A DNA stretch of 64,000 nt from Apophysomyces variabilis (Eukaryota; Mucoromycota; Mucoromycetes; Mucorales; Mucoraceae), in assembly GCA_002749535.1 (NCBI GenBank), contig MZZL01000398.1, forward strand, positions 186,001 to 250,000, given 5' to 3'. Each line of letters opens with the position of its first letter. Position 1 is the stretch's first letter. The notes below the pieces were generated by a model. That model saw only the letters and a list, made by a program, of their open reading frames with translations. It searched no databases and was not told the origin of the DNA. The position numbers and the translations under genes are program-made. This document shows positions 26,954 through 34,530 of this stretch, one piece after another.

Positions 26954-29430
26954 CGCTCGCAAAGGTTAGAAGAAGAAGAACAGAGAGGGGAAAGCGTAAA
27001 ATAACGGTAAGCAAAAAGCCAAAAATGAAAAAAACTTTAAATTTCGGTTCAGCGACGTCAGAAGCCACAATATGGACACCAACACACCAGTAATCCGCGG
27101 GATCGTCTACGCGCACTTCACTACACTTCAGAAAAAGATTATGTTGCCCACTTTATCAGAACTAAAAATGAACTTTCGTTCTGAATTTTGTTTGTATATG
27201 TTTGCCATTAAGATCATCTTACGAAATAATCAATATTTAGCGTTTAATGATAGCCATTCCTTACATGCTTATAGTGTGATTTTGATTAAGTAAAAGTGTC
27301 AGTTATACAACTAAAGTGCCATAGGATGGTTTTTCAAACGTTGCTATATACAGTATTAAAACGTACACTTCCTTGAGTAGATATATAGTTATAGATATCC
27401 TAAATATGTCTGCTATAATTGATAAAGGCAGTGAACAAATATCTATACAGATTCTTTTTCTTATATAAGCATAGCAGTAAGACACGCATTAATATTTTAA
27501 AAGTTAAAAAGGTAGCATTAAGCATAATTCCAGTAATTGGCGACAGTTATGGAATTCAGGACCAAGTAAAGGAAGTGTACTAGTGTCAAGTGACGTTACT
27601 GAAGTGTACATGGCCGTCGCTTTTTTGGGGATTGAAGTGCGCCAGTGAAGTGGACGTAGACGATCCCTAATCTGCACCAGGCACGTCATGATCTTTTACA
27701 AAAATGACGCTGTATAACGCTGCCATGAAGTAGTTGACTCTAATACGCACGAATTTCTTCATCTCAATAGACATATACAGGAACGCACCTCTTCCATGCA
27801 TAACAATAACGTACAGCAATACAACAAATTGCAATATAATCCAATATCTATTAAAGCAATTGACAGCTATCAGTGTCAGGCACGAAGTACTCTTGTTTGT
27901 CAGACTTGTCATCAACAACAGAACAGAACTTTAGGCTCAAGATTGACCATTGAAAGAATTAGCCTTCCTAACAAATCTTCGCTTCAGCACTTCCTCTTTA
28001 GCACGCAGAATAACAGGAATCTGCTTCTTGGTTGCATATCGTAAAGGGCACTGAACTTGTAGACATACAGACCATTCATGTGAAATAGAACTGCTTATCC
28101 TCAAGGACACCCAATCTAGCCTCTTGACAGAGTCGGTATTACTGGACGGCATGTTTGTTTTCATCGAACAATTTCTAAAAGAATTTGCTCGATCTTGCTA
28201 CAACCATTGTCCATTTCCAATCCATTAGTCTTGATTTTCGTAGGAAATTTTAAGGGCGCATTTCGGTGTTTCTTCTACAGTGTGTCTTGCATACGTTCCC
28301 TCCTTGTTATGTGCGTTAATACTTGAGGGAGCGTTCGCGCCACCCCCGCTTTTCTGCTAATATGCGCAGGTAATTTTTCAGCATAAGGTGGGCCAGCGAC
28401 ATGATGGTATCTGATACGCCTGTTTAAGCCAAAGCATGTTTTATCATCTGTCGGTCCTTGACATTCACAATAAATAATTGATTATTAAAGAGCTATCAAG
28501 AGATGAATAAAAAACACACCTTGCGGGTTTCCGGACTTTGTATGTTTTCATTCCCTCTCATTATTTGCTTGTGTGGATAATACGCCTACTAAGACAACCA
28601 CTCATAGTAAAGCCCAATCCAACTGTCTAAAAGCGCGACAATGAAACGTCCAATATAAGACAATTGACACATTGTCAATAACAGAAATACATGTCGGATA
28701 CTGTATAACACGATCCGACAAATGGACGTGACTGACGGGAAGAAAAAGATTTTCAGGGATTAGTGCTTCCAGTGGGGAACAGACTATCTGTCAGGTTGCA
28801 GCCGAAGCAGTCCAGTCCAATCACTCTTTAAAGAACAACATGCTAAAACGTGAACGTAACGCAATTTAAAGTGCCCGTGCTCTGATGATACGACGCAAAT
28901 AGAGTGCGTATATTCCTTAGCATCTGTCATCTCGCAACATTTATGGTGCACTCACGCTCATAGGATAATCGACAACTAGCAAGTTGTACAAGCTCATTAC
29001 CTTCATTATGCAGCGCTATTCACACGTCAGCTGGTGTAACGTGAACAAGAAGCAATAAAAATTTTATCTGTTTATTGCATGTTTTGCGCAGTGTATCCAT
29101 TATGCGCATAGACATAGATAGGATCCATGGACCACGTGGAGAACAGTGCATCATCATGAAACACGCGTTTGAAATGAAGAGAAAACAGACAATATAAACA
29201 TAATTTGACAACACTTCACATCTTTCCTTCCTTGATAAGACATTGGAGAATCCTCAGAGTGTATCGTTCAGACATTATGAATAAGCTGACAAAACTGCCT
29301 GGACTATAATGTACATTGATTCATAATGCGTCTCCCTCGACGGTTTAACTAAGTTGAGGTCTTGATAAATTTGGGTGAGACTACAGTATTGCCAAAAAGA
29401 GAATTTCAGCAGAAAGAGTCGATTTCCTAA
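26954..29430. other. gene-poor stretch
   Basis: The first part is the GCN1 promoter side. No gene is supported beyond it. A 75-codon minus-strand frame (27937-28164; VSLRISSSISHEWSV and onwards, with YATKKQIPVILRAKEEVL) is mildly protein-like and its upstream ATGs are in frame, but I find no family. The remainder is AT-rich spacer, probably old repeat DNA leading into the Fanzor relic. Confidence 0.4.
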
Positions 29431-29436
29431 AATCAC

Positions 29437-30262
29437 ATGAAGAAGTCTCAATCAATCATTTCTGCGCTTCATGTTCTTCTTTCCTCTCTTAAATTTCCTT
29501 CTCTTTTAATTTCTCTTACGCGTACTCCCTTCTTACCAACTGCCAGAGACACTTACAGTTTTTTCTATGGAAACCCCAGAAGATCAAGTAAGAAAAAGTC
29601 GCTGTTGACGAAGGGTGATGGCCCGACAAGTGGGGCAACTCGTAAGACAAAGCTGGCCAATATCCTCAAGCCAGAATACAAGTATATGAGAGTATGTATA
29701 TTGTTCACATGTGCTGGTATAGGCTAGTATCATGTTTAGCAAAATTCCGTGAAAAAGCGGAAGAACACTAGGTACTTCGCCGTGATCCCATGAATTTAAT
29801 CAATCTTCATGTCCGCAGGTGGGCGGAACTTCCTGATCCCGAGACTTTCCCCTCCCCTCCCCGTGATAATGAAAGTTTATGGCTTCGGGCTTACAAACTC
29901 GTGTCAGCTGGCTCCATGGAAGAGAAAGAGGTAAATGCAACGATTTTAACTTCGAACAAGCACTCAAGTAACATAGCCAAGAGGCAACTGAAAGCAATGG
30001 GAAAATGACCTGGTTAAGACATATGCCGAGTACTTCGTTCCTTGCACAGTAGCCCAAAATTTGCCATGGACCACATGCTTAACGTGTCAAATAGTTAGCT
30101 TGAAGAACAGTGCTGCCAATGGATAAGGATACTGAAGCAAAGGATGAAAAAGATGAGCAAGAAGTTCATGAAGGAATCCTGACGAATCGGAATGACGATG
30201 ATATATCCGTATGAATCGAGGTCTTACAACAGTGTATTGAGGTTTCCTCTTTTCTTGTTTGG
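29437..30262 (+). pseudogene. decayed coding-like region upstream of Fanzor remains
   Basis: Plus-strand runs look like degraded exons. At 29550-29695 one reads FFYGNPRRSSKKKSLLTKGD and continues lysine-rich. At 29817-29930 the run WAELPDPETFPSPPRDNESL begins right after an acceptor-like CCGCAG. At 30119-30225 there is an acidic run (DTEAKDEKDEQEVHEG). The frames between them do not join. They may belong to the N-terminal half of the Fanzor gene that follows or to another dead gene. Confidence 0.25.
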
Positions 30263-30796
30263 GATGCAGAAGCCCTAGAGTCAAAACCATGGTCAATCAT
30301 GCCTTTGGCAAGCCATCAAGTTGTACATATGCCAGTGACAGCATCCATGCTTTGGGCTTCCTCACCGATTGTCACGATAAAGGAAAACCTGTACCTCAGG
30401 AGATGATTGGAAGGCTTTGTAGTCGCTATGACATAGTAATAGGGATAAGTTGCTTCGATGATGACGCTCATCTATTGATAATAGAACCATAGCCGGTGTT
30501 TGATCTCTAGAGAAGCATATGACAGTAACCGTAGAGACGTTGAATGGAGAGAACATCTTTGGGAATCTATATTTGACTTTGCCAGCTTGCAGCCAAATCA
30601 AAGAGAGACGAAAAAGGACGACACCCAGAAAAACATAGGTGTCCTCTATGTAGAAAGATTCGTACTTTCATATTTGCAGCTACCCTAACCTGTCTTAATA
30701 GCCGACAAAGCCATAGCTTTTCACCGCTATTTGGGAACTGATGGAGTATCTGCTTCCATGTTATATGAGCGTGCCGGCTTTGGTAAGAGACTTACC

Positions 30797-32438
30797 AAAT
30801 ACACACTATGGGAAATTTTTCGTCGGGTCTCCTTTAGCTGACGACGAACCCGACGAAGCTGCCGCCGTCGCAGTTACCCCCTTTCTCTCTACCTATTCCT
30901 AGCTTCTAGTATCCGTTTCTATTGATTATACATTGCAAAGAATAAGACAGTATAATTAAAATAGGGCAACGAATACTTTTATTTCTTTTTCGCTTAAGCT
31001 TTTCTACACTTGTAGCAACCCGACTGATTCGAAGCATTTGTCCTCCTTTCTTCTGTTTTGTCCCCCAGTTTCTTTCGATTTATAAACATAGAAGAACAGA
31101 GAAAGCTTAAGTCATTTAAATTGTTATCCGAAACTTACCAACAAGTGACACTGGGGGACACTGTTTCCCCTCTTATCTCTATACCTGGTGAATGTTGCTG
31201 CGAACTATTTCCAGGTGATGTAAGAAAGAAATTTTAACCATTACTTACCCCAATATAATCTATCTTGCAAGAGCTTTATACACTTTACTAGAAGTACTAC
31301 CCTCATGGTTCTAGCTGTAGAAATGCCTTTATTCGGCATTTACGCCAGCAATTGTTCCAATTCTTTCACAACATGTACTGCGCGGCCAAGTAATATTCGC
31401 ACTGGTTCAGTAGACCTTGTATTTGACAAGGGCCATCCTGTCCAGGCTGTCAATAGCCTTTTCTTTCTACCAGCAATGCACGTCCTTTCAGTACATATCG
31501 GACCGGCCTTGGCTTGCATTTATGTCCGTCACCAGCTTTTCGATCACCAGGTTGGAGATGTTACTGATAGAGATATAGCTGTCAGTTATAACGCCATCGG
31601 GTATCTCCTCTTTCGGGTTGACGACAAACTGCTTGACCCGGCCTATATTCGTATCCAAGGCTTGCTTCTTTCCCAAAGCATCCGTTTCGTAAGATGCCTT
31701 GATGGTTCCTGCGGACAAAATTGGTAGAACCACGTTACCAATATCATTGTTACCAGAGAGCAACAGAGGTAGACCTTTCAATTTGTTTTATCTCTGTTAC
31801 GTCAGCCTTCAATTTCTCGTGCGATTTTTCTTATTATTTAGGCGGATGTTAATGCCATTGGTATCAGATGGGTTAGTCATTATGGAAAAACATGAAGAAA
31901 GAAAAAAGTTTGCGAGAAGTAACCGCAGCAAATTGTATGTCAGTTTCTGTTTAATATCTTAGCAATCTTGCCAACGAAAGGCATATAACCCTGGAGATAA
32001 ATAAACGTACGCCTGCTACAATCATAGTTTTAACTTACTAATTCTATGTCCATAACAAAAGATTCACAAAGTGTTTCATTTTTCCTCGAATTTAATACTA
32101 ATGTACTATCATAGCAACTTTTTATACAAATTGATGTATAAGCTATCGGGATCTTATGTGAAGCGACAGTATTTGCCAGTGTATCTCGCGTATATACTGG
32201 GCACTACTATGTGTACCATGGCTTTGTGCCCGGTGGGCTCGACCTGATAATCTTGAGCAAATCTAATAGCCGATATTAAGGAAAAAGGAACCACCCTTAG
32301 AAAATCTGTCTTGTCAAAAAAAAAGAATAGCGGAGAGCATCCGACTTAGTGAAAAAATCTGCAATTTTTTAGACGAACCCGACGCCACGACGTCGATTTC
32401 CCGACGAATCCGACGAGAAATTTTCCAAAGTGGCATTT
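30797..32438. mobile_element. 1.6-kb insertion with terminal inverted repeats
   Basis: The left end (30797) reads AAATACACACTATGGGAAAT then TTTTCGTCGGG. The right end, read on the minus strand from 32438, is AAATGCCACTTTGGAAAATT then TCTCGTCGGA. About 30 bases match with a few changes and a one-base gap. Both ends also carry the subterminal motif GACGAACCCGACG (around 30843 and 32373). The segment separates the TDG block of the Fanzor relic from its RuvC-I block, which otherwise would be close together. Inside is a 98-codon minus-strand frame (31488-31781) and an overlapping plus-strand frame, neither recognised. I see no clean target-site duplication. A decayed DNA transposon or its non-autonomous derivative is the best reading. 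Confidence 0.5.
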
Positions 32439-33347
32439 GAGCTTAGTAGCTGAAGTTTCCTTGGAATAATACCCAAGCTCCCAACGGGACTTCAACCAAC
32501 TGGAAAAAAAAGAGCGAGATCTGAGCCAACAGAATCGCCGCATATATCATCTACGGAAGAAATCAACTTCGATTGGGAATCCCACGATTGCAAGGGTCAT
32601 AAGAATTGATCCTGGTAAGATAAAAAGTCCTATTTATGAAGCTCTGTCCTTCTTACGTGCAAAACTAGGCATTCGGGATGTAGTTATTACGGTTGACACG
32701 TCGGATGGCCTGCAAGATAAGTCGTACAGAAAAGCACACACATTCTCTGTATCCAACGCGAAATACGCAAAGGATGACAACAATTGAAGTAACCCAACTA
32801 AAGCTAGATCTGGTTCGCTGTTTACGTGGTGTAAGCAGATAGAACTAAAGAATCGTCAGAAATCCGACATGCAGGCACAGGTGTATGACAAATTAAATGA
32901 AGCATCATCGAAAACCGCGAGTGTGCAATGCTTTCAGAAATATCTGCAAGACATTTAGCGAAGTTCATGACAAGTAAGATACAATTTTAAGTCATATTGG
33001 CTCCTTATTTTGTTTATAGATTGCATGACTTTAACTGTCATTACACACTCCGTGAAAACAGAATGTTGTTATTCGAGCTAGAAATATCACACTTGATCGA
33101 CTGACAAGTCGAATTTTTCGAGGAGAAGGATCGGTAAGACTGCTATTAATTATTTTTACTAACTTTAGATCTTAACAGAAAGAGATACCGATGGCTCATA
33201 AAACCAACAAAAAAGGACAGAAGGCCAACAACAAAGAAAAGCCAAGTACCAAGCAGAAGGGCGGCGAGTGATAGTAGCTTATGGAGATGCAGATCTTAAA
33301 CCAAGCAAGAAAGGCCACGCCCCAGTGCCGGTAAAGGTTGTATCTTT

Positions 33348-33366
33348 ACTTTTTTTTTTTTTTTTT
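33348..33366 (+). repeat. poly-T run inside an intron-like gap of the Fanzor relic
   Basis: A run of about 18 T sits between a donor-like GTAAAG (after the GHAPVP block) and an acceptor-like TTTTCGCAG before the LVDEY block. It may be an expanded polypyrimidine tract of a former intron. Confidence 0.4.
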
Positions 33367-34050
33367 AATTCGGTTGATTCATGTCGTGATTTGCATATAC
33401 TTTTCGCAGGTTTCTTCCCAGAAAATGCCTGATGATCCTTGTAGATGAATATTTAAGCAGTCAGATTTGCTCTCTCTGTGACAGGAAAACCGAACTGATG
33501 CGTAATACTGAAACTTTCCGCTGTAAACACGAGTATGATCGTTAGCTGTGTGATCCTCACCTGATTAATGTTATTTCTTAGAATAAAGTTAATACGTCAG
33601 GACAACGATCGCAAGCTACGACGCCTCTGCCTCGATGACGACAGAAAGATACTGCACAGAAAGTCTCAATGTCCTGATAAGAGAAAACTTAGTATGACAA
33701 TACCTTTCAGCTTCAGTATCTTGCAATCTTACTAGCATTTTCAGCATTAAACGATAGCCGAACGATTGTCTATCCGATAAAAATTTGCAACAATCATTTG
33801 GCGGAAGACACGTACAGCTCGAATCGTCCAATGGTAAGGGCTTCTGCTCCTAAAATATGTCCTTCGTGCTGACCATATATGTCAGTATTGGAATAGAGAC
33901 GTTAACGCTGGTCTCAATATACGAAGAATTCGTATTGAATATATGAAGATAACTGACCTTGATTCCCGTCCAACCGAATTAAAACGTCCTTTTAAGCAAC
34001 AAGGCCTTGAAGAACAAGGCATACAGCCCTTCGTTGGGTCAGGCTGGTAA

Positions 34051-34530
34051 GTGCGCTTGGGAAAGTAGTGACGTAGCTGGTGCGAATAACCGGTGCGGAT
34101 AGACAAGCTTTAGGGGCCTGATTTCACTGGGTTTGCTGAATCGTATGAATTACCTTCAGAATAGCTATGGCTATCAGCTTTGTTCCTTGCGCAAAAGTAG
34201 ATGGTTTCTTTGAATCAGATTCATACTTAGATAGCCCATGGGGGACGTTCAACGGTTTAAACAACCAATGTTATCGACGAAGAGTGAAGAGCGTTAAGCA
34301 TATCCTTAATAGCATTTTCTCACTTTTACTGATACCAAAGAAAACACGCCACACACATATAGGAGGAAAGACTCAAGTTGTTTAAATCTATTGAATATGT
34401 ATATCGATTTTTTTTTTGGTTTTTCTCTCTGTCCCTTTATAATGGGTTTTCTACCATACGATCGGACGTTCAAATCGATGCCACGTTATTCAAATCCGGT
34501 AACCCTGGCAAAGGTCAAATTTTTTTGTCG
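34051..34530. other. spacer and COQ8 5' flank
   Basis: No gene seen. The frame of COQ8 is open upstream of its ATG to about 34378 but contains no earlier ATG, so this part is leader or promoter. Confidence 0.5.

Follow-up and report, generated by a model that had tools for sequence, protein, structure and literature searches.

What kind of mobile element carried a broken RNA-guided nuclease gene into a fungal contig, and by what enzyme could it have been moved? The question is posed by a stretch of 64,000 nucleotides of Apophysomyces variabilis, called the window here (C83:186001–250000 of the 38.7-Mb genome assembly; C numbers denote places in that assembly), in which an earlier reading of the letters, the original prediction, had placed a fossil gene for Fanzor, a TnpB-like RNA-guided nuclease, at 30.2–34.1 kb. 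Judged by its ends and its relatives, this gene is cargo of an element of about 7 kb with Mutator-like ends, which spans approximately 27074–34110 on the plus strand and reaches beyond the frame first considered. What the window holds is most probably a defunct DNA transposon copy with ends like those of a Mutator-like element (MULE), carrying a Fanzor1 gene as cargo; three of its sister copies combine the same module with a MULE transposase.

This reading is carried by three sister copies, C76, C37 and C107, which are collinear over 6.2–6.3 kb at 88.6–91.6% identity and lie in unrelated flanks, the sole outside similarity being a 43-bp inverted match in C76 that is part of a neighbouring mini-element. 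In all three, one unit bears on a single strand a decayed MULE transposase (PF10551), which occupies the 5′ half, and the Fanzor gene, which occupies the 3′ half. Against a PF10551 cut-off of 27.6 bits, the transposase pieces scored 36.8 bits in C76, 72.5 bits in C107 (one stop) and 28.1 bits in C37 (two stops). The left end of the C76 copy is GGGATTGTCTACGCGCAC. Partial MULE-type copies were also found: C87 retains pieces of both halves and the right end, and C73 (L069, C73:344498–348650) has the transposase half followed by the beginning of the shared module, beyond which the fetched stretch shows no Fanzor match. The link between MULE and Fanzor is thus drawn from the collinearity of C76, C37 and C107 and not from the proximity of hits.

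The window copy shares only the 3′ portion of this layout. Its homology to the MULE-type copies starts sharply at window position 28595, equal to C76 element coordinate 1864, in three of three comparisons. The left part of the shared module (28595–30803, plus strand), with the N-terminal half of Fanzor, shows 83–88% DNA identity to C76, C37 and C107; the right part (32437–34110, plus strand), with the RuvC and zinc-ribbon half and the right end, shows 86–88%. Upstream lies a different 5′ half, termed X (27668–28594, plus strand), with no recognised protein. The Fanzor module is therefore present in two carriers, X-type and MULE-type, which are identical in layout from 28595 rightwards. A description of the window copy as a 5′-truncated MULE-type element was considered and rejected, as its 5′ half is that of a different carrier with its own left end.

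Besides the window copy, the X-type comprises six others (C95:2998k–3002k, C95:1453k, C95:3431k, C66, C106 and C119), copy counts in this genome being lower bounds throughout. Reading across the junction in C106 placed X immediately upstream of the module; at the three C95 places and in C119 it lies next to the module by match spacing, and in C66 about 2.7 kb more than expected separates the two. The X region gave 32 match rows in the genome, including the window and some split places, and several of these, at about 70% identity, have no Fanzor match listed nearby. Four X-region frames gave only weak Pfam matches, far under the cut-offs, and no frame of the window copy submitted to Pfam matched a transposase. 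The X-type left end reads GGGACCGTCTATTCGCACCAGTAATCCGC at C6, with similar ends at C95 (two), C66, C106 and C64; in the window it is degenerate and was placed at about 27074 by eye against these, and the opposite boundary of the element, at about 34110, is the terminus seen at 12 of 14 inspected loci. The MULE-type copy at C76 has as its immediate neighbour an X-type element with a related mini-element. An internal deletion is common to three X-type copies; in C76 element coordinates it runs from about 4030 to about 5970, and its ends agree to within 10 bp. It takes out the RuvC half and leaves the right end in place, the pattern that a derivative mobilised in its own right should show.

The cargo is, by motif and profile, a dead Fanzor1-type gene known in kind (30.2–34.1 kb). 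All five blocks that had been claimed were re-read on the plus strand, in the claimed order and between 30734 and 33909, and the stops and frame changes that had marked the gene as dead were seen between them in the window frames. In translation these blocks are GTDGVSA (30734–30754), the RuvC-I motif IRIDPGK (32599–32619), KKGHAP (33307–33324), the stretch DEYLSSQICSLC (33444–33479), which holds the RuvC-II glutamate in its alternative position and the first CxxC, and the RuvC-III motif WNRDVNA (33889–33909). Other Fanzor frames of the same genome (L001, L003, L005 and L007) likewise contain ATDG blocks. The Fanzor fingerprint, as given in PMC10711439, is a DPG within RuvC-I together with a glutamate placed six residues ahead of the first CxxC; both features, the latter as ExxxxxxCxxC in DEYLSSQICSLC, are readable in the window copy; the C76 sister has DPA instead of DPG. 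When the proposed check against the TnpB profile was run, the zinc-ribbon piece (33390–33545) matched PF07282, the TnpB zinc-ribbon family, at E 2.3e-5 with 24.9 bits, just missing the curated cut-off of 26.3. Together with the fingerprints, this bears out the label of a fossil Fanzor.

Several observations pull the other way. Nine other window pieces gave no match in the same Pfam search, and C76 and C37, like the window piece, are absent from the PF07282 matches in the genome (at least 73). Two window pieces compared by sequence with the PDB matched no solved structure, and for L002, another Fanzor frame of the genome, the match to TnpB structures was no better than E 0.005 and that to the Spizellomyces Fanzor had E 0.32. 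A Fanzor would have a complete C4 zinc ribbon with the RuvC-III aspartate following within 4–8 residues. In the zinc ribbon of the window, the first CxxC and the RD are readable, about 300 bp with apparent introns apart; the second CxxC is not readable and the fourth cysteine is not evident. The profile and structure results might be expected if the pieces came from another RNase H-fold or zinc-ribbon transposase. That origin is nevertheless very improbable, given that the DPG, ExxxxxxCxxC and RD motifs all stand in order and that the C107 copy, at 27.2 bits, exceeds the PF07282 cut-off and is among the genome matches.

The gene probably starts at about 29567, the first ATG set by eye from the C76 frame and roughly 700 bp earlier than first noted. 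Part of its disruption is, by position, due to two nested repeats. A 1.6-kb repeat (30804–32433) with ends CACTATGGGAAATTTT...CCAAAGTG splits the Fanzor gene and accounts for most of the distance from the TDG block to RuvC-I; it is missing at the corresponding point of C76, C37 and C107, has at least 21 other near-full-length copies at 83–91% identity (a lower bound, with 40 of 63 candidates scored) and, for those of its frames submitted to Pfam, matched no family clearly. The other is a 569-bp mini-element with MULE-type inverted repeats (27099–27667) within the X-type left end, the arms of which (27099–27122 and 27644–27667) are 92% complementary and the flanks of which, TAATCCGC and TAATCTGC, agree at seven of eight bases. 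This mini-element was also tried as the left end of the large element and rejected, since it has its own flank duplication and is itself nested in the X left end. To the eye, several further interruptions resemble GT–AG introns common to all four aligned copies (the window, C76, C37 and C107).

The examined copies look neutral and dead, having drifted without visible selection on either protein. Over five Fanzor exon stretches set by eye, differences in the RuvC half were spread evenly over codon positions in each of the six pairwise comparisons of the window, C76, C37 and C107 (p 0.40 to 0.94), and over three MULE frame stretches no codon-position bias appeared in any of the three pairs (p 0.56 to 0.92). 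The four copies also differ by insertions and deletions in the RuvC half. Stops in the RuvC-III sister matches do not count as decay here, since the query overruns the position at which most sisters have TAG.

The two carriers are also distinguishable at their ends. Among 19 match rows, 14 extend to the right end, and all 14 loci were inspected; a right terminus was seen at 12 of them, the window included (34066–34110, plus strand), and not clearly at L060 and L065. MULE-type right ends read CGCGTAGAC in all four seen (C76, C37, C107 and C87), and X-type right ends read GGATAGAC or GAATAGAC in all five seen (the window, C95:2998k, C66, C106 and C119). In these copies, which are related and do not count as independent trials, the right-end variant is predicted by the 5′ half; right ends at C60, C77 and C81, where the 5′ half was not seen, and copies in which the right end was not seen (X-type C95:1453k and C95:3431k, MULE-type C73 and C70) are outside the count. 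Left ends vary at the same place and in the same direction. Over the outer 18 bases, left and right ends of the same copy agree at 16 positions in C76, 14 in C107, 14 in C106, 12 in C66 and 11 in C95; across copies, a MULE-type left end agrees with MULE-type right ends at 14–16 positions and with X-type ones at 12–15, and an X-type left end agrees with X-type right ends at 11–14 and with MULE-type ones at 11. Like ends, by these counts, modestly match like.

Target duplications of Mutator elements and MULEs are 8–11 bp long, usually 9 bp. The C95 X-type copy is flanked by GAATTGTC on both sides (eight of eight bases), C76 by AAAACTGC on both sides as an 8-bp match with a one-base offset, and in C66 six of eight flanking bases agree. 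Separately, ACGTCA was seen shortly upstream of the left ends of C76, C107, C66, C106 and the window copy (as TGACGTCA in C107 and C106), which possibly reflects an insertion preference.

If this account of the element is right, the MULE transposase would have moved MULE-type copies by cut-and-paste and would have acted in trans on X-type copies and deletion derivatives. Fanzor, by analogy with published Fanzor and TnpB work, may have bound an RNA transcribed from the right end onward into adjoining sequence and cleaved the site vacated by the excised element; repair templated by a sister copy could then have restored the element.

Not everything fits a single mobile unit comfortably. The window copy and C107 show no target duplication, and C106 is unclear in this respect; C37 is without its outermost left end; X-type ends match one another weakly (11 to 14 of 18 bases across C106, C66 and C95); and no intact member of the window's own family was seen in the genome, so that past function cannot be demonstrated for either gene. 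MULE–Fanzor proximity was dropped as evidence, with five pairs within 12 kb against about three expected, in a count that joined 73 PF07282 and 67 PF10551 matches to three rows added by hand at approximate positions (C83, C76 and C37); two of the five pairs were such rows. The missing duplications, the sharp junction between the MULE 5′ half and the Fanzor module (C76 1864, window 28595) and the occurrence of the module with another 5′ half would also suit two independent transposons, a Fanzor element having been joined once to a MULE and the composite then copied passively by segmental duplication. We regard this as improbable: the three composites stop together near inverted repeats and are unrelated outside, which duplication of a larger segment would not produce, C76 has matching flank on both sides, and the right-end variant tracks the 5′ half in four of four and five of five copies.

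Within the preferred account of a MULE-like transposon with Fanzor cargo, the order in which the carriers arose can be read in opposite ways. The MULE-type may be the original, with the X-type comprising later non-autonomous forms that took up the Fanzor module and the window copy an ordinary non-autonomous derivative. The three X-type copies with the same internal deletion indicate that derivatives were mobile, and no data date either carrier before the other; X, however, is not a leftover of the MULE half: its DNA is unrelated, it has a left end of its own and it is present in many copies. X copies of about 70% identity have diverged further than the copies of the module, suggesting that X is old. 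On balance this history is a real possibility, though somewhat short of an even chance. A bolder reading is that the Fanzor module changed carrier, its 5′ half being swapped for a Mutator-type one that brought a transposase, while the outer right end was subsequently rematched to the new left end and the gene and inner right end were kept. The direction that this reading takes, a MULE 5′ half added to an X-like element, is equally tentative, and we hold both to be doubtful. A match of X-type ends over about 34 bp had appeared to favour the swap and was weakened on recounting, at 17–22 of 34 within copies; as this is no better than the 16–19 of MULE-type copies, our estimate for the swap was lowered from slightly under even to its present level.

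The original prediction also expected a guide RNA to be formed at the conserved end, for which we found no support. The right ends had no match in Rfam, and a common fold of 11 of them (11 of the 14 loci, with L060, L064 and L065 left out of the alignment) gave a covariation term of +0.6, with both sides changed in two of 45 pairs. Right-end identity among the 11 copies is 0.79 to 0.91 per 30 alignment columns, a level that does not clearly exceed the rest. Conservation is best in the block AAGTGCGC, near the right end, which is also present, inverted, in the MULE-type left end, and for that reason may be a transposase binding site, a candidate explanation equal to that of a guide RNA. Were the element functional, its guide RNA would be expected to stop at the sharp right terminus, with the downstream flank in the guide position.

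Intact relatives had been expected elsewhere in the genome; the data favour this only for Fanzor1 generally, and no intact member of the window's own family turned up. L081 (C27:196900–201900) and L082 (C79:223300–228300), of a separate Fanzor1 family, are 99.8% identical over 3494 bp. L081 has an open C-terminal frame of 279 aa with VDPG and NEYNTSKTCHWC motifs, which scored 24.4 bits when scanned alone against PF07282, and a frame of this length without stops is listed at six places in the PF07282 search. The near identity, for a family known from a partial open frame, suggests recent multiplication in this genome. Closer to the window gene, its 70-aa RuvC-III piece gave at least 21 match rows and its 105-aa RuvC-I piece at least 12, counts that take in the window itself and a few split places. 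Matches of the RuvC-I piece extend to C94, C36, C4 and C66, at 34–39% identity (E 2e-11 to 9e-10); as blastn gave no alignment of these places to the C76 element, the similarity is at the protein level. By motif they look like related Fanzor families, with VDPG in C94 and C66 and EYNASKVCSSC in C4. The C4 zinc-ribbon frame matches PF07282 under the cut-off (E 3.5e-4), and three RuvC-I frames from this set matched no Pfam family. The L003 frame, of another Fanzor family, had no relative in the protein collection. Downstream of the element, at 34.4–36.5 kb of the window, lies a host gene that, from its translated frames, we take to resemble an ABC1/COQ8-type kinase.

If the carrier swap took place, Fanzor and its right end would be a portable unit that autonomous eukaryotic transposons acquired repeatedly, and transposase and RNA-guided nuclease would have travelled together, as in bacterial IS605 and IS607. 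The same Fanzor in two carriers, alongside derivatives that lack the nuclease half, offers a natural comparison of benefit to the nuclease's own carrier versus action in trans, and bears on why eukaryotic transposons retain Fanzor.

A search of the open full-text literature for Fanzor and MULE as whole words returned no paper; subscription journals fall outside its scope, and we make no claim that the combination is unpublished. The nearest published systems are fungal. The text of Bao and Jurka (2013; PMC3627910) on MuDr-like Fanzor1 elements in Rhizopus, Phycomyces and Mucor (ROr-4, PBl-3 and MCi-4) states that these 'do not encode MuDR Tpase'. Their architecture of Fanzor1 cargo, Mutator-like inverted repeats and short target duplications in a fungal host is the one that the X-type window copy follows in outline, its left end being degenerate and its target duplication not visible, whereas the MULE-type sisters described here carry a decayed transposase, a distinction drawn between descriptions rather than compared sequences. 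Their target duplications are given in that text as 9 bp, against 8 bp in the clearest case here, C95. The same source describes the MCi-2 family of Mucor circinelloides as one 3′ part with the Fanzor gene joined to several 5′ parts, an arrangement that resembles ours; MCi-2, however, is described there with 11–12-bp duplications, no recognisable inverted repeats and a partial Crypton transposase in one subfamily, whereas a MULE transposase belongs to one of the carriers described here, in which the right-end variant also follows the 5′ half. Spu-1 of Spizellomyces punctatus, as portrayed in sections of PMC10432273, likewise places Fanzor between inverted repeats and has 'ghost' copies that keep the ends and have lost the protein; according to those sections it has no transposase between the repeats, unlike the MULE-type copies, and its RNA and activity were shown, whereas the present elements are known from sequence alone. 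Set beside these systems, the MULE transposase–Fanzor composite and the two-carrier arrangement, with two 5′ halves for one module, are the parts that go beyond what we found in print.

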